From Medicago truncatula (lineage: Eukaryota; Streptophyta; Magnoliopsida; Fabales; Fabaceae), in assembly GCF_003473485.1 (NCBI RefSeq), contig NC_053045.1, forward strand, positions 38,042,494-38,106,493: a DNA stretch of 64,000 bases, in the 5' to 3' direction. The notes under the pieces are model-generated. The model was not told the origin of the DNA and ran no database searches. It saw only the letters and a list, made by a program, of their open reading frames with translations. The translations under genes were made by a program, and so were the position numbers. Positions 3,070-59,032 of the stretch are shown one piece after another; the stretch's first letter is position 1; each line of letters starts with the position of its first letter.

Positions 3070-4122
3070 GGTGAATTAGGTTTTAGAACAGAGTGAGTTG
3101 TTCCGATTTAACTCGTTTCAGCTGAGAAAACGAGTTACATATTTGAGCGACACGTTTCTAAGTTCTAATTGTGACTCACTGTTTTCTCTTCTGCACTTCG
3201 TAATCTCCTCCAACTCTATCTCATTCATTCATACCAATAAATCAAATAATCTTTTTTTAAGGGATTTATGACATTATTTTTATCAGCCATTGAATTTAAC
3301 TATTATAAATGTATGGTGAAATATAATATTCTCTGAAAAATAATTTTGTTATTGCATTATAATTTTTATATGAACCCCGAACACACCAAAAATAATAATA
3401 AATTTAAAGTTTTGTACGATATTTTGCCAAACAACTTTAAAGTTAAAAATAACTTTATAACTAAAAAAAATAAAGAAATCAAATAGCTTTAACTTCTTTC
3501 TTAAAGATCTTTATTTTAACTTTGTTTTAAAGCTTTTAGACCATAAAAAACATAGTCAAACGGTACCTAACACAAACCTCAATAAGCTCGTAAAAATAAG
3601 ATATCCACTTGTTTGTGAGAAAGTGAACCATTACCAAGCTAGTCTTTTTTAGCCAAATGAGCTTATATGACATAAGCTATAAACTCAAAAACATGTCTTA
3701 CCAAACAGACCCTACGTTTCTACTCCCCATAATCCATTTCCAATTTTTTTTAAAGGTAATCCATTTCCAAATATTTTGTTTTCATTTACTATTCATGTTC
3801 TGTAATAGTTCTAAGCTTTCTTTCCTTGATTTTGTTTTCTTTCTGCACAATCCAACATCAGTGTACTTGTAATTCATACACCGGTCTACAACTCTACATT
3901 ACTAAGGATGTGGCTTTACTCTTTTGTTTCAATTTCATTTGGATGTCAATGTTGATTTTCATTGTCGTATAAATACAGATAATAATATTAACTGTGTATC
4001 TATACTGCACACATTATTTCGATCTATATTACCGAATATTGTTCTGTTGTTATCTTTACTCATTGGCATAAAATTCAAATGTCATCCCACTGGTCTACAA
4101 TTGTAGGCAGTACATTTAACAT
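3070..4122. other. Intergenic region, CDC14-like 3' side and plastid-protein promoter
   Basis: This is the upstream region of the gene starting at 3069 and the downstream region of the gene ending at 4123. It contains scattered fragments of the hAT-like MITE family (for example ACCAAACAGACCC near 3700) and the micro-insertion at 3744-3756. No further coding sequence is supported. Confidence 0.5.
3730..3770. repeat. Oligo(T) micro-insertion with 14-bp direct repeats
   Basis: TAATCCATTTCCAA occurs at 3730-3743 and again at 3757-3770. Between them is a 13-base insert, TTTTTTTTAAAGG. Confidence 0.75.
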
Positions 4123-10733: not shown

Positions 10734-10780
10734 AGGTTGAAAATTACGTTATTTTTTTTGAAGGAAGGTTGAAAATTACG
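10734..10780. repeat. Oligo(T) micro-insertion with 15-bp direct repeats
   Basis: AGGTTGAAAATTACG occurs at 10734-10748 and 10766-10780. The 17-base insert between them is TTATTTTTTTTGAAGGA. It lies about 220 bases upstream of the sugar kinase start codon. Confidence 0.8.
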
Positions 10781-15040: not shown

Positions 15041-17115
15041 TTAGATTGTAACCTTGTATTTAGTACCAAAATTCTTTCATATAATGAAGGAAGAAATGTA
15101 TTCCTTTGATATGTTTCATAAGTCCTGTAAATACTTTCATTGTAAAAGAATAGCTATGCTGGCAATTAAATTACTTAGGCTTCTGTCCATTCTCCATCAC
15201 ACAATATTATTGTTATTAGGTACATTGATGTATTCTATCTAAATACCTATATGTAATATGAAGTGGGTTGGTCCATGTCATTTTGTATTTGGTCCATGTC
15301 ATTGAAGTGGGTTGTGGTTAATAAAATGCGCAAGGTGCCTATTTTATTCTTCTTTTAATTAGGAATTGTGCTTCATTAATTGTTCATATTAATTTTGAAA
15401 ACTTTTTTGGTGGTTTCTTTTTAGGGGCCCTTAATATCTCTTAGACCCCCTAAAATTCATTTCGCGTTTTTGAAGCATATCGCTTAGTTTGGGACCTATG
15501 TTCCGGAGGAGTTTTTGAAGAATTTAAGCAACGGAGATACGAACCAGAGGGTTATGTAGTTATCATATGTATTTATTTCTTTAAGAAATTATGAGAGAGC
15601 CACATAGGACACAAGCTACTTGGAATGGATTAATTAGAGCATTGCATCATTCTTCTTCAAGGGTCTGTCAGTAATAATACATAATCCACAAAGCATTAAT
15701 TGAGCATTGAATTTCTACCAGAACTTCATCTTGATGATGAATTATGCATGAAAGTTTCAAACTTCGAAGAATTCCCATATGTGTTTTGTGTATCCATCAT
15801 AGTTGACTTTGATTTAACTAGATCTTGAAAAAACCATAATTTTTCTAGTACTAAAACATTTATTAAGGTTGTTTAAATATGGGATAAACAAAGTTAAAAA
15901 TACATGATCCAGTCATCAAAAAGACAAACACTAACACAAACGTTGTTTGTTTCACATACAAGTTGCAGAAATTCAAATCTGGAAAATGTTGCAGATGAGA
16001 AGTGAAGGGTAGTGGTGAAAGGTGGCAGAAGAAAAGGGTAGCTTTGGAGAAATGGTTGTTTTATTTGAGTTGAAGAAGATAAAGAAGAAAAGCAAGTTGG
16101 TGAGAGAGAAGCTTGTGAATTTGGTCAGCATAAAGGTCGGTCAATATCTTATTCACTTAAGCATATTTATATTGGATGCATTATTGCTGCTTAATATGAT
16201 GGAAACAAATCCTCCGAAAGATAGATACCGAATGAATAGAACATGGGGTAAATTAGAAATTTGGGGGGGGGGGCGTAAGAGATATCGAGTGGCTTAAAAA
16301 GAAACTACCAGCTTTTTTCTTATAAAAATGTATGCCATAATCATGGCATTATGGCAAACCTCATTTTATTTATGATAAACTAAAATATTCCAACACGTAA
16401 CTGAAGATTTTAATCTCTCAAAAGGACTAAGATTCAATTATGTTTTTCCATACGCACAAATTACATATTGAACCCTCAATCATACGATTAAAACTAACAT
16501 ACTCAAGTATCTATCATTTGTGTCACATCCATGTTACTAATACTTCGCCTTTATTTTACATTCTTTTTAGTCATAAATTTAATTTTAACTGCATTATTTG
16601 TATAACAAATTCCAGAGATCAAGTTTTAATTCAAGTATATTAAACTTTAATTTGCAAAAAGTTTGAAAGAGAAAAGTATAAAAAATAAAAATAAAACTAA
16701 CATACTCCCAAAAAGACAAAATTGATAAGAGAAAAATATAAAAAAAATTACTTCACACCTTGTATCAAATGGACTTGAATTTGTCCCCAAAACTGAAATT
16801 TTTCTTTCTTAGGAGCATAATTTTTGTCATGTTACAAAGAAAAAGGATAAACTGATTTCGTGCAAGCTAGGATTCTAGCAAACTATATAAACTATTTTTC
16901 TATCCGCATATGACATGATTTTTTCAGGAAGAAAACAAAAAAAACATAACTAAGGGGATTGTAATCAGTATCAATCAAGGACTTCGGGAAAACTGTGATT
17001 GAAGCTTTGCTTTTGCCTCCTCATTTCTTGTTGTTCATCCACCAGTTGATAATTCAACCAAGAAAGGACCTAAAAATACGCCTAACCGCTGTGTCACATG
17101 CCTATACACAGATGT
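15041..17115. other. Intergenic region between convergent genes
   Basis: It holds the 3' ends of the plus-strand sugar kinase and the minus-strand nucleoporin gene. A run of ten G residues occurs at about 16262-16271. An open frame at 16022-16297 has no recognisable domain and is not called. No other feature is supported. Confidence 0.45.
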
Positions 17116-19544
17116 CTACCAAACAAATCTATCTGGAGGAGCTTGTTCTGGAATCTGTCAAATTAAAAGACATGAAACAGAGAAAAATGTCAGCATATAT
17201 CTCACAAATTGAGAAAACATCCCCAACACTTGAATTTTAAACTATATAGTCAACAAAAAGTAAGCATATTTCTGCCAAATTTTAATGCTTGGAGATGACA
17301 AATTGTATATATAGTCAACAAAAAGTAAACATCCTATTGCAGATTCTATCCAATACTGTGACTGTATGTATCAAAAAGGAAATTTTGTCATGGTTTTGTA
17401 AATGAAATAAATGTTTTTGAGAAACCTGAATAGACACTTATTCCCAACTTCCACAAGAGGACAGTAGAAGACTATTACCTCTCCAGGATTCCATTTCTCC
17501 TTTAACCAGATACTATCATCCACAGACACATTCTCCACTTGGGACGTATTTCTGCAAGAATAAGTAACCATAAGATTCAAGAAAAAGTATTTGTAACTTG
17601 CACATGAAGCTGGATTAAAAGCTCTATAAAGATAGCCTCAGAAAGTTAGTGCAGTAACAAAGGTGAAGTTTCCAAGTAGGTTCAATACTAACAAAAGTCA
17701 TTTCAGTATAGCAATATGTTACAGTTCAATACCAACATTAAAATCTTAATCTTTAAACTGTAACATATGGCTATACTGAAATGACTTTATCACTGATATA
17801 TGCAATCAACTTTGTCCAAATTATATCATTTATAACTGGTGCAATTGGGTCATTTACTTTGTAGGGAAATTAACATGAGTTTTCTCATATTAACAAGAGT
17901 ATCAATTATGAGTTTCATCACAAAAGTGAATTACATAAGAGTGTCAGGAGATTTGCTCAGATTGAAATACATGACTAATTTGAAGATGCAACTATCTGAA
18001 AATGCTCAAGGTCAATGGGCTGGGTTATGTCGTTATGATCTATATCGTATTAACTGAACTCTGTTTTCTAGAAAGTTGTACAACTATTTTTGGTTGACTA
18101 TTGAATGAAAATGGATTTGATTAAATTGTCACAGCTACTACTTTAGAACTTTAAACTAGTGTGAGCAGTGACTTACAGCTGCACATCTGGTGCTGTCTGA
18201 AACATTGTAGTGGAGCTAGTGTTATTGAACCCAAAGGGTGGTTGTTGGAACTGGGAAGTAGAACCTGGAAACCCTGTCAACCCCACTGGTGTAGGAAAGG
18301 GGTTGACTTGACCACCAGAGATTCCACTGCCGAATAGATTTCCTGAGTTGGGTGTGAAAAAGTTTCCTACAGTTTATCACAACATCATGGTCAAACAAGG
18401 AAAATAGAAGACAAATGTACTCGTAGTGTTTGTCATAGAAATTTCGCAAAATACATACCTCCACCTCCAATGGAACTAGGCTGCACCGGAGTACTCATTA
18501 ATGGTGCAGAAGGCCTAACAAGAAAGTTACAAACAGATTACCATATGCCAAAAGCAGACATAAAAAAAATGAGAATATAAAATAAAGGAACAAGATATAA
18601 ACATTGCATGGGAAGCAAGTTCGAGACCTGTATCCTATCCATTATAGCATACAGTGTTTTCTTAGGGGAGACATAAGGTGGTTGAGGTGTGGGAGTACGA
18701 GTGGAGTGATAAGGAGGTTGTGGGTTCAACCCCCACCCACAACAAAAAACTAACATTAACACCGATTTTGAATCACTCAATGCCAAACAAAAAAACAAAA
18801 ATACACTGATTTTGAATCACTCAATGCCAAGAAAACCATCATTTTAGGTATGTATTCGGATTTCGGACACCAAACTCTCATGACCTAGGTCATTCAACAG
18901 AACTTGCAACAGATATTCAACTAGTATGTATTAACATTTCTGAAACTGTAACCTTAAACCACTATAATAGAAAGATACATGTCTTTCACCACTCTTTTGA
19001 CAATCACACCATGATCCCAAACAAAAACAAATAGTAGATAGCAGTTCTAGAAAAAGGAATCCCTGTAGAGGTGTGATGCAACCAACTAAAGAAAGTAGGT
19101 CACAAACAATCAGGCCTCGTCAATATCTCTATATGATTGCAAACCGTATAGCAGTTAAGCTCTTTGCTTTCCCTGTTAGCTAAAATTTGGATATTTCTTG
19201 ATTTAGGTCATTTTTTGACTCCACAAAATTGAAAATAAAGAAAATGTTCTAAAGCATGGGATTGTTACCTTCCAAAGCCAGGGTTCAGTGAAGCACCCAG
19301 TTGGCTAAAGCTTGAGACTGATAAAGGACCATTATTTTGAGTGGCTGGTTGAAAGGCATTTGCATTGGCTCCATTGGATTGGAAGTTTTGAGTGGCTGGT
19401 TGAAAGGCATTTACGTTGGCTCCATTGGATTGGAAGTTTTGAATGTTGAGAGAAGACGTCAGAGGCATTTTGTAGGGTTCAGAAAGTAGTTTGTTAAACT
19501 CAACCAACTTGGATTGTAATATGTTTTTCTCTTTCTCAACCTGT

Positions 19545-24356: not shown

Positions 24357-24409
24357 ATAAAGAGTGTTAGTGTTTTTTTTTTTTTGAGAGAATAAAGAGT
24401 GTTAGTGTT
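24357..24409. repeat. Oligo(T) micro-insertion with 18-bp direct repeats
   Basis: ATAAAGAGTGTTAGTGTT occurs at 24357-24374 and 24392-24409. The 17-base insert is TTTTTTTTTTTGAGAGA. It sits directly downstream of the LINE remnant. Confidence 0.8.
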
Positions 24410-28502: not shown

Positions 28503-28549
28503 TTTAGACTCAAACAGGTTTCAAAAAAAAAAACTTTTAGACTCAAACA
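28503..28549. repeat. Oligo(A) micro-insertion with 14-bp direct repeats
   Basis: TTTAGACTCAAACA occurs at 28503-28516 and 28536-28549. The insert is GGTTTCAAAAAAAAAAACT. Confidence 0.75.
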
Positions 28550-28834: not shown

Positions 28835-29070
28835 AAAAATGACTTAGGTAAGCGTACTAATTTTAAGGAAACCTGGTAAGGAGGAATTACTAATACATAG
28901 TTACATACGTATTTTTTTGAAGGAGTTACATATTTAAAGTATATTCAGTCATATTTTTAATGTATTTTCATAGTATTATTTCTCAGAGTATTTTATTCAA
29001 AAATGACTTAGGTAAGAGTACTAATTTAAAAAAAAAATGTATTTTCGTAGTATTATTCCTTAGAGTATTT
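28835..29070. repeat. Imperfect local duplication
   Basis: A block AAAAATGACTTAGGTAAG continuing to ACTAATTT occurs at 28835 and 28999. A second block TGTATTTTCATAGTATTATT occurs at 28961 and, with differences, at 29038. It looks like a partly deleted tandem duplication. Confidence 0.6.
28899..28932. repeat. Oligo(T) micro-insertion with 9-bp direct repeats
   Basis: AGTTACATA occurs at 28899-28907 and 28924-28932. The insert CGTATTTTTTTGAAGG carries the same T(n)GAAGG tag as 10749-10765. Confidence 0.65.
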
Positions 29071-29498: not shown

Positions 29499-29585
29499 GC
29501 TCATTTCCATCAAATAGTCGAGCGTGAGTTAACTCACGCAGTGTATTTTTTAACGTGGGTTAACTCACGTAGAATGGAAATGAGT
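29499..29585. repeat. Nested palindromes
   Basis: GCGTGAGTTAACTCACGC at 29522-29539 is a perfect 18-bp palindrome. ACGTGGGTTAACTCACGT at 29553-29570 is the same core with one mismatched pair. Both are enclosed by the inverted pair CTCATTTCCAT (about 29500) and ATGGAAATGAG (about 29574). Confidence 0.85.
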
Positions 29586-39300: not shown

Positions 39301-40404
39301 ATGCAGTGTTTTTTATGGCAGAAAGCCAAAAATCCGTCATTCTAAACCGCGATAAAATGTCATGGCGCCATCATTCTCACAAAAAAATCAGCCACCATAA
39401 TTTCCCATGGCCGATATTTGACAACCCTGACGACATGAAAGCCTAAACAAAGAATAAAATCAGTCACAACAGATTTGGTGCATTACAGGGTCTTCTTCAT
39501 ACTTGACCCATATTCTACCATCTCTACCGTGGGGCTTCTCCATGACATTCACGTAAGACATAACAATTGTATTTCTACTAATCATTTTATCTATCATTAC
39601 ATTCACATATCTTGAACACCAACTTATAAGTTAATTTGGAGCAACTCTCACCACCAACATTTTTTTTAACAAACTCTCACCACCAACATTTCTTAAAACA
39701 CTACTGGTGTTTCTGGAAGTGTACTTCCAAACGGCACAAAATTCACGTTTTCCTGGATGTGTGCGTCCGAAGTGATACTGGGGGTCAAAAGTTGCCCCAC
39801 AGGTTAAATTACAAACAATTTTTTATTGGGGATTTTCCGCCATAATCCGATATGACAGCACCACAAAGTGAACGGTATGGCAGGATTTTGGCTCTTTGCC
39901 ATAGACAACACTAATACAAGGTGAAAACCTAAACAAATTATAAGATTAAACGACATATGCAGCAAATTTTGTGCTTTTAAATGTTTCCTTCATACGCGAC
40001 ACAATATTTAAAAGCAATATTCTACCATCTCTGCAGTAGGCTTCAAAAAAATTCTCTAACTATTTTTCATTGTGTAGCCCCCTGACACTTATTGAAGGTG
40101 TGTCCGCTGTCCGACAGTAACGCATGTGATTACGTTCAATTACTTCCATTTTCTCAAATTATTACCGGTGCCAACGAAGTTTATGTGTTTAATGATTTAG
40201 CTGAAAAATGAAGGAAAATGGTTTGACCTTATCTTTGACACCAACAATTCGATTAAAGACAATAGCACGATGACCACCCTCAACATTATACAAAGTATTT
40301 GTAGCTCCATAGACAGCAAGTCCACCAAGAATGCTAACTTTAAGCAAAGCAGAAATTCCGCCACCGCCAGGAACCTTTGGGATCTTCATGTTGTTGAAAT
40401 TCAT
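36374..40404 (-). CDS. Prohibitin, type II (PHB1/2/6-like), 290 aa
   Basis: Five coding exons on the minus strand: 40404-40228, 38978-38862, 37594-37424, 37232-37020 and 36568-36374. All boundaries are phase 0 and the total is 873 nt. The N-terminus ([16 protein letters not shown]) leads to a single membrane anchor ([20 protein letters not shown]). The SPFH/prohibitin domain follows ([59 protein letters not shown]), with a C-terminal coiled coil ([19 protein letters not shown]). Length and motifs fit the type II plant prohibitins of the mitochondrial inner-membrane ring complex. The 5' UTR seems to be split: an acceptor TTGATAG lies directly before the ATG, and a candidate donor AAG|GTTCAATT is at about 40498. 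Confidence 0.92.
37920..38520. mobile_element. Stowaway-type MITE with nested insertion
   Basis: Ends are TTCCCTCCGTTTCAAAATGA and, inverted, TCATTTCCAAACGGAGGGAG, with TA on both sides. At 601 bp it is long for a Stowaway MITE. An inner unit at about 38081-38387 starts GGTGCGTTTGTTTTAG and ends CTAAAACAGACGGGGCC, and looks like a second MITE inserted into the first. Both lie in intron 2 of prohibitin. Confidence 0.8.
39643..39689. repeat. Oligo(T) micro-insertion with 18-bp direct repeats
   Basis: AACTCTCACCACCAACAT occurs at 39643-39660 and 39672-39689. The insert between them is TTTTTTTAACA. Confidence 0.8.
40095..40185 (+). repeat. Dispersed GTGTC/GACAC repeat, copy 4 (partial)
   Basis: GGTGTGTCCGCTGTCCGACA is followed by CGCATGTGATTACGTTCAAT and TTTTCTCAAATTATTACCGG. 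It lies in intron 1 of prohibitin. Confidence 0.55.
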
Positions 40405-41974
40405 CTATCAAAGCATATAATAAATCATAATGCAAATTAGTTAACATATGAATAAAATCACAAGCGAAGAACATAATTAGAGTAAGTAGAAATTGAACCT
40501 TGCGTTGCGGTGAGTGGTTCAAGAGGTTGTTGTTTGGCTTTGTGGAAAGAAAGGGTTTCGATGGGTTATAGGGTTTTAGGGCTTATTGAGCAGGACACTG
40601 CTTCCGAATCTTTCGGGTGTGTTTTTTTAGCATTTCTGTGTTGGGTCGGGTACCCGATAATTTTTAACCATTTCCATGGGATTTAGATACAGGCCGTTAA
40701 AACTATGGCATCCAAGTGCTACCCGATTTTTTTTTTAATGCATGGTAAAGAAAAATTATATGAATGAGTGATTGATTGATTAAAATAACTAATGTGGAAA
40801 TCAACATAAAATTGCAATAGAAGGTAAGGTTGGCGATTGAAGGTACGATACATGAGGTGAAGGTGAAGTGAAGCTAAAATGGACAATATAAAATAAGAGA
40901 TTTGATTTCGGATAAGGGAATTCGAAAGAAAATAACAAATACACAATTTTGGTTGGCATTTCATTGCTTGAGACAAACATTTCTTTAATAGTAATTGAAG
41001 TAATTGGATAATTATCTCATTGTTGAGCCTTCCATGTGATGCATTTTGTGGGATAAACATTTTCATGTTTGAAATGTGTTGGACTTTAAATTTGTCAACA
41101 AAATGGTTCTAATATGGTACTAAAGTGAAAGATTTACTCGTGAAGGCACCACGACCAAAAACTACCCAATCAAAATTTGTTATTTAGCATAAAATATGGT
41201 ACTTCGGTGAAATACAAGCGAGTCAATAAAGTGGTCGTTTCCTTCAAAAAAAAAAAAAAAGTGGTCGTGCAATCAATACATCCAGTTTTGCTTTTGTGAA
41301 GGAGTAGCTAGCTAGCTTTCAAGCAGCGATGCATAACATTTTCATATTACATAACAGTGGTCTCAAATAAACTCATAAACCCCTTTTACAAGTATAACCA
41401 TTGACCCAATTTTACATATAGTTCATAACAAGTTTAAACCCCAAACTAAACCATTACACAATAACACTTTGTCAACAAAATTAAAGCTACTTGCGGATAT
41501 GTAACAACAAGTGTGGATTGTGTTCCAAGTAATCAACCGTAATCATTGGCATATTGTTGAACTCGATGTATTTCCATCATTATTCACCCATCACGATGGT
41601 TTCGATCATACATATTTGATTTAGGAAGATTTGTTGCATAGTTGATTTTGTGAAAACTAAGAAATTTAGGATGGTATTTGGTCGTGACTCATGAGTTCTT
41701 TTCTTCTCTCTTTTATTTTTGTTTCTTGTTTTATTTATTTTACCTTTTTTGCATAGGAAGACAGAGAGATCGCATCAGATAGATAACTGAAGAGGATTCG
41801 TATCCCTTATAATAAGGGGTTAATACCTCAAATAACTCTTGTAATCTGAAACAAAAATACACGGATTTCACCTGTGTAGTTTTGAATTCTTAATATTTTA
41901 CTCTCATGGTTTTAATTTTGTACCCTTTTATGACGACAATTTTTCATCATTATGAGATACAATGTAACATATAA
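40405..41974. other. Intergenic region upstream of prohibitin
   Basis: It holds the prohibitin promoter and 5' UTR up to about 40620, then AT-rich sequence with the micro-insertion at 41228-41268. No gene is supported. Confidence 0.45.
41228..41268. repeat. Oligo(A) micro-insertion with 11-bp direct repeats
   Basis: AAAGTGGTCGT occurs at 41228-41238 and 41258-41268. The insert begins TTCCTTC and continues as a run of A, the reverse complement of the tag at 10749-10765. Confidence 0.8.
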
Positions 41975-44189: not shown

Positions 44190-46530
44190 GATTCGGATTA
44201 TATGGTGAGGTCTGGATTACCCTCTCTTGTTTATAGGGTATTTACCCTTTCAAAATATCAACCAATCAAAATGCAATTTACAAATGTAACATTAAATGTC
44301 AAATAAATGAGTCGATTTTTCTATAAAAAAAAATCAATTTTAATAAGGTAACTTTTAATTTTGGGTTAAATTTGTTTTTGGTCTCTACAAATATACCAAC
44401 TTTTCATTTTAATCCCTCTAAAATTGTCCTTCAACTTTAGTCCTTATAAAATTTTCAATCACTACTTTTGGTCCCTCTTTTAAAGTAAACTCATATGTAG
44501 AATCCGTATTTTTGAATAAAATTTTTCAAAAAAAATCATAATATTATAAGAATCTCTCCCTAAAAAAATTAGAATTTTTTAACAAAACATGAATTTAATA
44601 TGAATTTGTACATTTATTACGGTTAAAAATTCATATTAAATTTGTGTTTTGTTAAAACTTCTAACTTCTTTTGCGAATTTATTTTACAATATTCTACACA
44701 TTTCTCCACAATTTCATTAAAAAATACAAAAAAATAAGGACTAAAAGTAGTGACTGAAAATTTTATAGGGACTAAAAGTTGAAGGAAAATTTTAGAGGGA
44801 CTAAAACCAAAAGTTTGTATATTTATAGGGACCAAAAACATATTTAACCCTTTAATTTTTATTTAATTATATTTAGGTATACAATTTTAATTAATTTACA
44901 CCATAGGGCTTGTAACAATTAAAATTTCACATCAAATTCAACCCATCATATACGTTCATAAATTTTGTGCCATTCCAAAACCTAGAACACGCATAACGTG
45001 CAATTTCCTCTTCATTTTTCTTCCCATTTTGACTGTTCAATTCTCTCGTTCCAGAATTGTCGTTGTTTCCAATTATCGTGAGAATGGTTGTCGTCCATTT
45101 GATTCTAGACATCGCGAGATCGACATTGTTTCCAAAAGCTAAATCCACGAATTAACGCTCACCTTATGAAATTTATGTTTGTATTAGCATTGTTATTTAT
45201 TTATTTCACTTTGTCTTCTCTTCCATAGCTTTAACTGACCTCACACCGTGTTCACAATCTCAACAAATGTTCATTTCGGCAACACAAAATACACTAGAAA
45301 CAAAAACAAAATAACAACACAATATAATGATTTGAATAAAATAAATTCCAAAAGTAGATTTAATAATCGATATTGTACCAAAAATAAAATTAATAATCAA
45401 CGCATCGAAGATCCATTTATCTTAATCAAACGCAAAATATGTGTGATAAAATACAATTTTATATAATCTCAAACAACTCAATCAAACTCAAAACCCAAAT
45501 AAAAATGGAAGCATCATTGGAATTCATGCCAAAGTTGAAAGTCACCACTTTCGCATTACAAGTGTGAAACGGTTGCAATCAAGTCACGATAGTAGTGAGA
45601 AAGAAACGAAAATGAAAAATTAAATCAATAAGAAAAATCAAGTCACGATACCTGATGTGATTATTGAAACAACATCGATTCTGATAATGTCTGTAATCAA
45701 AAGGACGACAATGATTCTCACGATAATTGGAAACAACGACAATTCTGGAACGAGAGAATTGAACAATCAAAATGGTGAAGGAGAAAATATAAATTTAAAT
45801 ATGATTATTAATTTGTTTATAAACCTTTAAAAATAATAATTTGTCTATTAGAAATAACTATTATTGTCACTTTAAAAATACACATTTTTCCCTATTTTGA
45901 TGTATATATGTATGTAGTTTTTCCAAACTCCAAAATTAATAGTTAGCTTTAATATTTAACTATTAATTGTTTGTTTTTAAGAAAAAAATAATATAAATTT
46001 TTAAGTTTGGGGGGCATTTTGCACATAAGTGCAAAACTTCAGGGGGGGTATTTGCAAAACGTCATGTTCACTAACAAAAAAATTTGACGGAGGGGGTAAA
46101 TTGACTAATGTTGTGAAATTTCAGGGGGGTAATTGAGGTTTTGTTAATTTCAGGGGGGGTAATTGATGAAACTTACAATTTCAGGGGGGAATTGACTATT
46201 TACTCCATTTTATTATATCAAAACAAACTTATTAGCTAGCTTATAGTTTACCAAACATAGCCATGATGGGTTGAGTTTGATGTCAAATTTTTATTGTTAC
46301 AAACCCTATTGTGTAAATTAATTAAGATTGTATACCTAAATATAATTAAATAAAAATTAAAAGTAACCTTATTAAAATTGATTTTTTTTATAGAAAAAAT
46401 TGACTCATTTATTTGACATTTAATGTTACATTTGTATATTATATTTTGATTGGTTAATATCTTAAAGGGGTAAATACCTCTTAAATAAGAGAAGTTAATA
46501 TAGAAAAAACCGAATTACATAATTCAAATA
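44190..46530. mobile_element. ~2.3 kb foldback element with nested insertions
   Basis: The left arm (44190-44362 plus 44860-45135) is mirrored by the right arm (45650-45782 plus 46255-46530). Examples are TTAAATGTCAAATAAATGAG at about 44300 against its complement near 46410, and CCAGAATTGTCGTTGTTTCC at about 45050 against its complement near 45735. The left arm is split by the MITE at 44363-44850 and the right arm by a segment at about 45783-46254 that bears repeated CAGGGGGG motifs. The centre is about 0.5 kb and has no recognised coding sequence. Confidence 0.7.
44363..44850. mobile_element. Long-TIR MITE, Mutator-like, 9-bp TSD
   Basis: The ends GGGTTAAATTTGTTTTTGGT and ACCAAAAACATATTTAACCC lead into inverted arms of about 90 bp. 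Both sides carry TTTAATTTT (44354-44362 and 44851-44859). A 9-bp duplication with long TIRs is the mark of Mutator-like elements. It is inserted in the left arm of the foldback element. Confidence 0.88.
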
Positions 46531-48934: not shown

Positions 48935-49009
48935 ATGAATCTTCTCTATTTTTTGTTTAAGATGAATCTTCTCAATTTTTTAATTTTTTTTTTAAAGATG
49001 AATCTTCTC
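48935..49009. repeat. Triple direct repeat with two oligo(T) spacers
   Basis: ATGAATCTTCTC occurs at 48935-48946, 48962-48973 and 48998-49009. Spacers are TATTTTTTGTTTAAG and a longer T-rich tract ending TTTAAAG. This looks like two micro-insertions at one target, about 350 bases before the callose synthase start. Confidence 0.75.
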
Positions 49010-52300: not shown

Positions 52301-54655
52301 CGGACAGTTAGAGGAATGATGTATTACTATCGGGCCCTCAAGATGTTGACATTTCTGGATTCTGCATCAGAAATGGACATTCGAGAAGGCTCACGCGAGC
52401 TTGTTTCGGTGAGGCAAGATAATTTAGATAGTTTCAACTCTGAAAGGCCACCTCACCCCAAGAGTTTAAGTAGAGCGAGCAGTTCAGTAAGTTTGTTATT
52501 TAAAGGCCACGAGTATGGGACTGCTTTGATGAAATTCACATATGTGGTTGCTTGTCAGATTTATGGAACTCAGAAGGAAAAGAAGGATCCCCATGCTGAG
52601 GAAATTTTGTATCTAATGAAAAACAATGAAGCTCTTCGAGTTGCATATGTGGATGAGAGAACTACTGGAAGGGACGGGAAGGAGTATTTCTCTGTCCTTG
52701 TTAAGTATGATCAGCAGTTGGAAAAGGAGGTTGAAGTATACAGAGTCAAACTGCCGGGTCCATTGAAGCTCGGGGAGGGAAAGCCCGAGAATCAAAATCA
52801 CGCCATCATCTTCACTCGCGGGGACGCTTTGCAGACTATAGACATGAATCAGGATAACTACTTTGAGGAAGCACTCAAGATGAGAAATCTCCTTGAAGAG
52901 TATAGACGTTACTACGGTGTCCGGAAACCAACAATTTTAGGTGTCAGGGAACACATTTTCACTGGCTCCGTGTCCTCTCTTGCCTGGTTCATGTCAGCCC
53001 AGGAGACAAGTTTCGTCACCCTAGGACAGAGGGTTTTGGCAAATCCTTTGAAAGTTCGAATGCATTATGGTCATCCAGATGTGTTTGACAGGTTTTGGTT
53101 CTTAACTCGAGGTGGTATCAGCAAAGCTTCCAGAGTGATCAACATAAGCGAGGACATATTTGCTGGGTTCAATTGTACTCTTCGTGGAGGTAATGTCACT
53201 CACCATGAATACATTCAGGTTGGAAAGGGAAGGGATGTTGGTCTGAATCAAGTATCAATGTTTGAAGCCAAGGTTGCTAGTGGCAACGGGGAACAAATCC
53301 TGAGCAGAGATGTGTACAGGTTGGGTCATAGGCTTGATTTTTTCCGAATGCTTTCATTCTTCTACACTACTGTGGGGTTCTTCTTCAACACAATGATGGT
53401 GGTTCTGACAGTATATGCCTTTCTATGGAGTCGACTATATCTCGCCCTTAGTGGTGTTGAGAAATCAATGGAAAGTAACAGCAATAACAACAAAGCACTT
53501 GGTGCCATCTTAAATCAGCAGTTTATCATCCAACTTGGACTTTTCACCGCCCTTCCGATGATTGTAGAGAATTCCCTTGAGCACGGGTTCCTCCAAGCTA
53601 TCTGGGACTTCTTAACGATGCAACTTCAGCTTTCATCCGTTTTCTACACCTTCTCCATGGGCACTCGCAGTCATTTTTTTGGCCGGACTATTCTGCACGG
53701 TGGAGCAAAATATCGAGCCACCGGCCGTGGTTTTGTTGTAGAGCACAAGAGTTTTGCCGAAATCTATAGACTCTTTTCCCGTAGCCATTTTGTGAAAGCT
53801 ATTGAATTGGGGCTAATACTTGTAATTTATGCAACACACAGTCCTGTAGCAACGGACACATTTGTTTATATAGCCCTGACCATTACTAGTTGGTTCTTAG
53901 TTGCATCATGGGTGGTGGCACCGTTTGTGTTCAATCCCTCTGGCTTCGATTGGTTAAAAACTGTTTATGATTTTGATGACTTTATGAACTGGATTTGGTA
54001 CAGTGGAAGTGTGTTTGCCAAAGCTGAACAGAGCTGGGAAAGGTGGTGGTATGAAGAGCAGGATCATCTAAAGGTAACCGGCCTTTGGGGAAAGCTTTTG
54101 GAAATAATCTTAGACCTTCGCTTCTTCTTTTTCCAGTATGGAATTGTTTACCAACTTGGAATTTCTGCTGGAAATAATAGTATTGCTGTATACTTGCTAT
54201 CATGGATTTATGTTGTTGTTGTATCTGGGATTTATGCCGTGGTAGTGTATGCACGGAACAAATATTCGGCGAAAGAGCATATCTATTACCGGCTTGTTCA
54301 GTTCCTTGTCATAATTCTTGCAATACTTCTGATAGTTGCTTTGCTGGAATTCACAGAATTCAAATTCGTGGATATTTTTACTAGCTTGTTGGCATTCCTT
54401 CCCACAGGATGGGGCCTGCTATTGATTGCCCAAGTTTTCCGACCATTCTTGCAGTCTACGATAATTTGGAGTGGTGTTGTTGCAGTGGCTCGTCTTTATG
54501 ATATATTATTTGGAGTCATTATTATGACTCCTGTGGCATTACTATCATGGTTGCCTGGCTTTCAAAATATGCAAACTAGAATTCTTTTCAACGAAGCATT
54601 CAGCAGGGGCCTCCGCATATCCCAGATTGTTACAGGGAAGAAGTCACAAAGTTGA
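49364..54655 (+). CDS. CALS12: Callose synthase 12-like (GSL5/PMR4-like), 1763 aa, one coding exon
   Basis: One uninterrupted frame encodes a 1,3-beta-glucan synthase. The N-terminus (MSLRHRQPSS, then EEEPYNIIPIHNLLADHPSL and FPEVRAAAAALRSVGNLRRP) closely resembles Arabidopsis CALS12/GSL5/PMR4, as does the length. The order is: cytoplasmic N-terminus with FKS1 domain 1 (about 140-260), a first membrane block (about 300-600), a large cytoplasmic glucan synthase domain starting near residue 866 (NIPINLEARRRIAFFSNSLF, then LAFSVLTPYYNEEVLYS) and including YIQVGKGRDVGLNQVSMFEA near 1285, and a second membrane block (about 1325-1750). CALS12 makes callose in wound and pathogen papillae from UDP-glucose at the plasma membrane. 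A GSL1/CALS11-type identity is less likely given the N-terminus. Codon use is GC-richer in the first 500 bases. Confidence 0.95.
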   Translation: MSLRHRQPSSTPPHEEEPYNIIPIHNLLADHPSLRFPEVRAAAAALRSVGNLRRPPFGQWRPHYDLLDWLALFFGFQKDNVRNQREHLVLHLANAQMRLTPPPDNIDTLDAAVLRRFRKKLLKNYTSWCSYLGKKSNIWIFDNRRTGEPDLRRELLYVSLYLLIWGESANLRFVPECLCYIFHNLANELNRILEDYIDDNTGQPVMPSISGENAFLNFVVKPIYETIKTEVDNSRNGTAPHSAWRNYDDINEYFWSRRCFEKMKWPPDVGSNFFTTVGKGKHVGKTGFVEQRSFWNLFRSFDRLWIMLVLFLQAAIIVAWEERTYPWQALEDRTVQVRALTIFFTWSGMRFLQSLLDVGMQYRLVSRETKMLGVRMFLKCIVAAVWIVVFGVFYGRIWEQRNHDRRWTKAANDRVLNFLEAVAVFIIPEVLALALFILPWIRNFVENTNWRIFYMLSWWFQSRSFVGRGLREGLYDNIKYSLFWVFVLATKFCFSYFLQVKPMIAPTKAVLDLKNVEYEWHEFFHHSNRFAAGILWIPVVLIYLMDIQIWYSIYSSLAGAGVGLFAHLGEIRNMQQLKLRFQFFASAIQFNLMPEEQLLNARGTLKSKFKDAIHRLKLRYGLGRPYRKLESNQVEANKFALIWNEIILSFREEDIISDREVELLELPQNSWNVRVIRWPCFLLCNELLLALSQAKELVNDTDKRLYKKICSSEYRRCAVIEAYDSVKHLLHEIIKPNSEEHSIVTVLFQEIDHSLEIEKFTNTFKTTALPQLHHKLIKLVELLNKPVKDSNQVVNTLQALYEIAIRDLFKDRRNPKQLEDDGLAPRNPASGLLFENAVQLPDTSNENFYRQVRRLHTILTSRDSMQNIPINLEARRRIAFFSNSLFMNMPHAPQVEKMLAFSVLTPYYNEEVLYSKEQLRTENEDGVSTLYYLQTIYDDEWKNFLERMRREGMMKDSDLWTDKLRDLRLWASYRGQTLSRTVRGMMYYYRALKMLTFLDSASEMDIREGSRELVSVRQDNLDSFNSERPPHPKSLSRASSSVSLLFKGHEYGTALMKFTYVVACQIYGTQKEKKDPHAEEILYLMKNNEALRVAYVDERTTGRDGKEYFSVLVKYDQQLEKEVEVYRVKLPGPLKLGEGKPENQNHAIIFTRGDALQTIDMNQDNYFEEALKMRNLLEEYRRYYGVRKPTILGVREHIFTGSVSSLAWFMSAQETSFVTLGQRVLANPLKVRMHYGHPDVFDRFWFLTRGGISKASRVINISEDIFAGFNCTLRGGNVTHHEYIQVGKGRDVGLNQVSMFEAKVASGNGEQILSRDVYRLGHRLDFFRMLSFFYTTVGFFFNTMMVVLTVYAFLWSRLYLALSGVEKSMESNSNNNKALGAILNQQFIIQLGLFTALPMIVENSLEHGFLQAIWDFLTMQLQLSSVFYTFSMGTRSHFFGRTILHGGAKYRATGRGFVVEHKSFAEIYRLFSRSHFVKAIELGLILVIYATHSPVATDTFVYIALTITSWFLVASWVVAPFVFNPSGFDWLKTVYDFDDFMNWIWYSGSVFAKAEQSWERWWYEEQDHLKVTGLWGKLLEIILDLRFFFFQYGIVYQLGISAGNNSIAVYLLSWIYVVVVSGIYAVVVYARNKYSAKEHIYYRLVQFLVIILAILLIVALLEFTEFKFVDIFTSLLAFLPTGWGLLLIAQVFRPFLQSTIIWSGVVAVARLYDILFGVIIMTPVALLSWLPGFQNMQTRILFNEAFSRGLRISQIVTGKKSQS

Positions 54656-57600: not shown

Positions 57601-59032
57601 AATTATTCCATAGAATGATAGTAACATGATTCAGATTTTTTTATATCATATATCCTTAGTCTGAGATTTTTTACTAGAAAACAATAGTACTGACTCAAGC
57701 TATTTCTTCTGGCAGTACTCTGCTAATTCTCTTGTTGATGACTAAGTTAATTGAAACAAATTAAATTAAAGAATTTGACAACATTATGACGTTGTTTAAT
57801 TTACGTGGTCAACGCCACTTAGTGAGTTTTTTTTTTTTTTTTTTTTTTTTTTGAGCAAGTGAGTTAAAGTTTGATTGTTGTTCTTTAATATTAATATAAA
57901 AAAACTTTACCACACAGATAAAAATCTACTTTACCGATAAAGAATAAATGTAGCTCTCAATTAGCTATAACTGAATAAATCCTTCTTTTTCACTTAACCC
58001 AGATGTTGAAGAAAACTACCACCACACATCACATAGGTAGATTGTGAAGCACGTGTAAAACCAATTAATATGAATGCTAAAGATTGTACAGTTTTTGGGT
58101 TCTTTTCGTGCGTAATTTATCATGTTTGTAATGCTCAATTTTGTCCTAAGCTATTAAAGTCAATTGTTTGTAACTTCGTGCATGCATATCTTTTTAAGTG
58201 GACAATGCACGTCTATTACACTTTTTACCTAACTTCCATTTAAATAAAAGAAGTAAGAAAAACAAACATTATTATCTTGAACACTTCGAGTCTTGTAAAC
58301 AGCTGCAAGACACGATTGGTTTTCCTAGTTCAAAGCACCCCCTATGACACGTTATATACTTATACATCATAGTTGAGATTCATGTAAAATTAATTAAAAA
58401 TGCAGTGCTTTGATATTGCGGTGAGTTTGACAAAATCGCAGCGAATCACTAATTCACTATAGTTTTGTCCAACCTAATGATTTTAAGAAATACTCACATG
58501 GAGCCTATTGACATAAGGTGAACCCGTGAAATACACACGACTTTCTAGTTTCTACATCAAAAAGTTCCAGAACAAATACTTACAATAGACTCTGATATCA
58601 TCTTAATTTGACATCGAGTTAATATTGGCAAACTCAAACTCAAACTCAAGAAAACTCATGCAGTGAGAGTCATCCACCACTTATAAATAATCACTATCTC
58701 AACTATATCACTCATCAATGAGAAATCTCCAGCTGATAACAAATGTAACAATTCATGATGATTTGGGTAAGTCTCAGTGTACAGCCAATGGGGGCAAATT
58801 GGATTCAAGAATGTCACTTGTATAACTTTCAAAAACTTTTCCATCTCATCTCAAAAAAATGTAGATTTTGTATATCTGGATTACAACAAACTTCAAAATA
58901 GATTACTAATCTATGCCAAAACACTATATATACCCCACTATGCACCCAACTGCACCATTGATTATAAAAATAGGATAGATATTATACAAAACCAGCCATA
59001 AAAGAACTCATTTCCTCTAGATTTGTCATTCA
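57601..59032. other. Intergenic region
   Basis: It includes the poly(T) micro-insertion at 57821-57865. No gene, SINE or MITE was recognised in the rest. The mannanase 3' UTR should lie near 59000. Confidence 0.4.
57821..57865. repeat. Poly(T) micro-insertion with 8-bp direct repeats
   Basis: AGTGAGTT occurs at 57821-57828 and 57858-57865. The insert is about 24 T followed by GAGCA. Confidence 0.65.

Follow-up and report, generated by a model that had tools for sequence, protein, structure and literature searches.

Short A tracts bordered by direct repeats recur in the Medicago truncatula DNA analysed here, where insertion of a poly(A) tract with duplication of the target is well supported, and the best reading of them, which we regard as probable, is that they are tail-only retro-insertions made by target-primed reverse transcription of poly(A) RNA. 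The window, that is the whole stretch of 64,000 nucleotides (G000:C4:38042494-38106493; the assembly has 42 contigs totalling 429,922,655 bases), was analysed together with an independent sample of 25 random 10-kb stretches (L002-L026, 250 kb, contigs C1-C8), whose positions were set by a seeded script and all came from the first 38 Mb of eight chromosomes. Window and sample together form the 314-kb set; L012, L017, L020 and L024 below are the names of individual random stretches. The anatomy of the inserts, their polarity, their excess over chance, their spread through the sampled genome and one repeat copy lacking the insert were all obtained directly, and the observation is confirmed and extends past the window into the sampled genome.

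Written on the A strand, the order at a site is repeat, tag, A run, repeat; a tag made purely of C and T is called a collar here. The initial annotation had described about ten sites with one layout, and exact direct repeats were found at all ten of these loci at their original coordinates:

3730..3770, minus strand: collared micro-insertion; 14-bp repeat, 13-base insert, CCTTT then A8
10734..10780, minus strand: collared micro-insertion; 15-bp repeat, 17-base insert, TCCTTC, A8 then TAA
18764..18830, plus strand: 23-bp repeat, 21-base A-rich insert ending TACACT, no clean tag; class uncertain
24357..24409, minus strand: collared micro-insertion; 18-bp repeat, 17-base insert, TCTCTC then an A run
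28503..28549, plus strand: micro-insertion with a mixed tag; 14-bp repeat, 19-base insert, GGTTTC, A11 then CT
28899..28932, minus strand: collared micro-insertion; repeat of only 9 bp, 16-base insert, CCTTC, A7 then TACG
39643..39700, no strand assigned: imperfect 29-bp tandem duplication, 26/29 identical; listed earlier as 39643-39689, with an exact 18-bp repeat and an 11-base insert
41228..41268, plus strand: collared micro-insertion; 11-bp repeat, 19-base insert, TTCCTTC then an A run
48935..49009, minus strand: 12-bp repeat present three times with two different A-rich inserts (15 and 24 bases, CTT... tags); target possibly hit twice
57821..57865, minus strand: likely micro-insertion; repeat of only 8 bp, 29-base insert, TGCTC then a long A run

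Pure C/T tags occur at five of the ten loci (3730, 10734, 24357, 28899 and 41228). Site 39643, better read as a tandem duplication, was rejected as a micro-insertion, and the weaker members of the list are 18764, 48935 and 57821. The repeat at 57821 is below the length cut-off, and this site is left out of the 314-kb and random-sample counts.

Further candidates were set aside. Sites 20865 and 37928 lie inside a repeat, which we take to be MITE-like, with an internal near-duplication; 864 belongs to a 53-bp tandem array; 29528 has a short A run and no clean tag; and L020:3554, L020:5253, L020:9378 and L012:8222 have tandem or shared internal structure. None of the set-aside sites has a pure C/T tag, and those that meet the automatic rule remain in the window, 314-kb, polarity and random-sample counts given below. 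Two repeat-flanked inserts, 18764-18830 and 29528-29569, have the sequence TACACT after the A run in common.

The frequency of these structures is well above what permuted flanks and Markov sequence give; a comparison with shuffled sequence had been proposed in the initial annotation. In the window, an exact repeat of at least 11 bp bridges 9 of 118 A/T runs of at least 7, as opposed to a mean of 0.22 and a maximum of 2 when right flanks were permuted among runs (0/500 permutations reached 9). The window also holds 29 direct-repeat loci (at least 11 bp, gap at most 45), and 11 of them have an A/T run of at least 6 in the insert, where 1.9 were expected and the maximum in 2000 draws was 8; four of these 11 (864, 20865, 29528 and 37928) were later dropped, and the seven left are above the mean and not above the draw maximum. 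In the random samples, 37 of 478 A/T runs of at least 7 lie between direct repeats of at least 10 bp, at least four of these 37 being tandem repeats, compared with a mean of 0.63 (maximum 3 of 200) after flank permutation and 0.30 (maximum 2 of 10) in Markov sequence. Automatic sites were present in 14 of the 25 random stretches and absent from 11, with up to 5 per 10 kb, and some sites in the crowded stretches are tandem repeats. When up to two repeat mismatches were allowed across the 314 kb, 23 of 244 C/T-preceded runs were repeat-flanked, while permutation gave a mean of 0.27 and a maximum of 1 of 30.

Replication slippage or chance, in which A runs grew between pre-existing repeats, is already disfavoured by these controls, which lie far lower than the observed counts, and we consider it highly improbable. 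A repeat family bears on the same question. L024:4032-4078 carries CCTTC-A13 and sits in a high-copy repeat (L024:3902-4228, starting near GGTGAGGCCTACATTACCCTCTC; 837 first-look candidates, 40 scored). The insertion is present in 10/10 retrieved copies, taken from the better-scoring among the 40 scored of 837, and as these ten were chosen by similarity to an insert-bearing query they show only that an ancestor of that subfamily already had the insertion. With the collared micro-insertion fixed in this subfamily, it is clear that the spread of other repeats can carry such inserts along. The length of the A run differs among copies of one ancestral insertion, which is what slippage would produce, but a relative of the repeat in the window has neither the second repeat nor a T run at the site:

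46276..46503, minus strand: repeat copy without the insertion, relative of L024:4032-4078, about 80 percent identical

This copy is without one direct repeat, the collar and the A run; it is the single insert-free case, found from two partial matches and with other indels close by. BLAST of the sites against the 314 kb gave three with relatives spanning the site, two of which are tandem structures in L020, and in the third L017:8653 and L017:381-620 have the insertion in common.

The inserts are strongly polar. Of 46 sites, 40 have the longer stretch of extra bases before the A run (5′ side) and five after it (3′ side), with one tie (p=8e-8), and pure C/T of at least 3 nt lies 5′ of the A run in 17 sites and 3′ in none. 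Across 44 sites in the 314 kb the direct repeats are 10-23 bp long with a mean of 13.5 (10 being the cut-off), and the A run abuts the second repeat without a gap in 26 of the 44, with at least one other base between them in 18. Target-primed reverse transcription is recognised by target duplications of variable length, by polarity and by a 3′-side A run. All three are found here, and we favour that process; duplications of variable length and a 3′-side A tail of one polarity are also what L1-clade machinery should leave. The suggestion in the initial annotation that the repeat lengths fit target duplications of this kind is upheld, with variable repeats of 9-23 bp, the A run on the 3′ side, strong polarity and the one related repeat copy that has no insert. 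The repeats of the 44 sites begin with no A in 16 cases, one in 11, two in 7, three in 5 and four in 5, and the average of 1.4, against about 1 estimated from chance extension into the A run, gives no clear TT/AAAA nick. An A-rich repeat start was dropped as proof of annealing because extension into the A run inflates the value.

Direct repeats around inserted bases could also come from patch-mediated double-strand-break repair, in which a pair of offset nicks leads to a tandem duplication and a repair polymerase supplies the A/T run and C/T bases as filler. Such duplications, with short direct repeats and inserted bases as seen here, are known in rice and other genomes (excerpts of PMC7407515 and PMC8355091), and 131 of 182 repeat loci in the 314 kb are without an A/T run, which means that duplications by other routes exist in this genome. 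The plant inserts differ in having a strongly polar A run and no detected local templating. A/T runs of at least 6 occur in 51 of the 182 loci where 12.5 were expected, and collars, which as filler copied from nearby should recur in their own flanks, were not found there above chance (18 tags, full tag in own flanks 4/18, p=0.57). We therefore think this form of repair improbable as the source of the inserts.

To describe the collar, tags were compared within and outside sites. Tags of at least 3 nt are present at 41 of 44 sites in the 314 kb; 18 of the 41 are pure C/T (55 C and 50 T), and the other 23 are mixed, some of those sites being tandem repeats. The last five tag bases are pure C/T with at least two C in 16 of 37 site tags as opposed to 27 of 551 other A runs (p=1.6e-10). 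There are 23 sites that match C/T(3-12)-A(5+) with adjoining repeats of at least 8 bp, and their collars measure 3 (two sites), 4 (four), 5 (seven), 6 (nine) and 7 bases (one), so that 23/23 fall within 3-7 though 3-12 was permitted; a 5′-junction tract of such limited length is what nontemplated addition should leave. One 15-base pure C/T tag lies outside the 3-7 range, and an apparent ten-base tag became a five-base collar with a 20-bp repeat when mismatches were tolerated.

The initial annotation had the tags clustering around TCCTTC and related forms. It had singled out CCTTC beforehand, and in the window this motif precedes 3 of 11 site runs (a set that includes 37928 and 39643, later dropped) and 0 of 107 other runs (p=6e-4). 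CCTT is found in 10 of 19 collars, where shuffling within tags gives 3.6 (corrected p=0.003; p=0.016 for the 23-tag set), and collar positions differ (p=0.012), with T at -2 in 15/19, C at -4 in 14/18 and C at -5 in 12/16. A single fixed tag TCCTTC was nevertheless abandoned because collars varied in the random samples, with 17 of 19 distinct; what remains of the clustering is a varied set of C/T collars enriched in CCTT.

In the target-primed reading, a nick in a target strand would expose a 3′ end that primes cDNA synthesis on the poly(A) stretch of an RNA, and the copy would take in about 7-18 A's (a longer run at 57821) plus a few more bases at most. The 3′ end of the cDNA would then be joined to the upstream end of a staggered break, so that 9-23 bp of target are duplicated. 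At the 5′ junction, the C/T collar of 3-7 bases, which is purines on the cDNA strand, would most likely consist of nontemplated bases added at template run-off, and the purine tail of the cDNA may bridge to a C/T-leaning 3′ end of the upper strand. Bases added to the cDNA end in this way would account for the narrow range of collar lengths and the C/T-only make-up of one strand. In the collar class the 3′ end of the upstream repeat leans to C/T (last base T in 13/19, third-last C/T in 15/19), as would be expected if a purine tail did the bridging. Insertion was probably carried out by the L1-clade LINE machinery of flowering plants, which is proposed to recognise poly(A); this machine, the RNA template and the origin of the collar are inferred.

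Published work on reverse transcriptases gives these steps some precedent. The R2 enzyme adds up to 7 nontemplated nucleotides with strong +3 and +4 products (excerpts of PMC8857657), and nontemplated addition by human L1 ORF2p is said to account for 5′ extra nucleotides (excerpts of PMC10830420). Non-LTR 5′ extra nucleotides resemble the collars as a few 5′-junction bases, up to 7 nt in R2, while the plant collars differ in being very often C/T on the A strand and without an element body (same excerpts). These excerpts contain no sign that nontemplated addition favours purines. In flowering plants LINEs are almost only L1-clade, (A)n forms the end of 224 of 233 families of this clade, and recognition of poly(A) has been proposed for it (excerpts of PMC3747384).

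Still within the target-primed frame, the collar could instead be templated: a single RNA family, or a few of them, with ends close to TCCYTY-A(n) would have contributed their final 3-7 bases. Synthesis would then have to stop there almost always, for example at a hairpin just upstream or on a template that is a decay remnant. The CCTT enrichment and positional differences argue against a nontemplated collar, as a template would give these, and CCTTC is seen three times in the window. That 17 of 19 collars are distinct argues in turn against one single template. Longer inserts bear on this as well. A partner of the downstream repeat was sought for each of 67 A runs that follow five C/T bases with at least two C. 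The search reached as far as 6 kb upstream inside the fetched stretch, and 20 of the 67 have a partner: 16 have 4-7 bases between, and the others are at 10, 15, 48 and 3886. The partner at 10 bases moved to 5 once mismatches were allowed, and those at 48 and 3886 are taken for chance or tandem repeats. In the DNA reachable in these stretches there is no graded series of longer inserts, against the expectation for a templated collar. For A runs of at least 6 in the window, the excess of repeats of at least 13 bp is confined to cases with no more than 45 bases before the run (10 vs 0.1), with 1, 0, 0 and 0 in the longer spacing bins.

A lone SINE-sized candidate, 16494-16705, consists of about 175 bp, with AAAAAATAAAAA at its end, between copies of a 16-bp repeat. 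It has no other full copy in the genome, which speaks against a templated collar too, and a SINE family behind it was rejected for that reason; it is possibly a retrocopy of a unique RNA. A SINE family would have many copies with a shared body of 100-300 bp, and no such long series was found among the 67 collared runs. A crude motif screen of 44 ORFs picked up no LINE in the samples, and no source LINE or SINE emerged. Besides this, the tail-only reading has against it the bases that separate A run and second repeat at 18 of 44 sites, the 15-base tag, the mixed tags, the lack of a clear TT/AAAA nick and the insert-free copy being a single case. The templated collar is a serious rival, if in our estimate a rather unlikely one, and a collar of nontemplated bases fits at least as well as the last bases of an RNA. 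The earlier description of the sites as retro-insertions truncated to the tail and last few bases stands in its first half, in the sense of a poly(A) tract inserted with duplication of its target; truncation from LINE or SINE families finds no support, since collars form a varied C/T mixture and not nested ends of one sequence, almost all are 3-7 nt long, and longer-bodied versions were not seen in the stretches searched.

Returning to tail-only insertion by target-primed reverse transcription, one close likeness is to simple poly(A) insertions reportedly attributed to human L1 in about 2005 as rare disease alleles. These are said to have the same A-only insert, flanking target duplications and no element body; the plant class differs in being frequent and in having a 3-7 nt C/T collar. 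The 5′-truncated L1-clade LINE insertions and processed pseudogenes of flowering plants (excerpts of PMC3747384) share with it an A tail by the 3′ repeat, target duplications and poly(A) as the proposed recognised feature, and the plant inserts differ from them in that no body is seen, only the tail and 3-7 bases. Among the literature titles found, none concerned such inserts in plants.

The random sample of 250 kb contains 14 pure-collar sites, or 56 per Mb (Poisson 28-88). If the sampled parts stand for 430 Mb, the genome would hold roughly 24,000 collared copies (12,000-38,000), a rough figure because it comes from only 14 sites in 250 kb of the first 38 Mb of eight chromosomes. Inserts this short escape usual repeat annotation. 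Tentatively, and as a bolder proposal than the target-primed reading itself, these collared tails may be a discrete class of retro-insertion making up a large unannotated share of recent insertions, in which an all-A template is copied to run-off, 3-7 purines are added and a C/T-rich upper-strand end is caught, leaving tens of thousands of frozen records of this terminal chemistry. Should their frequency in the samples hold for the genome, retro-insertions of the tail alone may be more numerous here than those with a body, collared tails may supply new A-run microsatellites, and the sites may reveal the way in which a plant reverse transcriptase finishes and bridges its cDNA.

The window also contains an uninterrupted callose synthase-like reading frame, which matches Glucan_synthase and FKS1_dom1. 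An Rfam snoJ33 match at 52308-52385 (75.1 bits, cut-off 45) lies inside this reading frame on the same strand.
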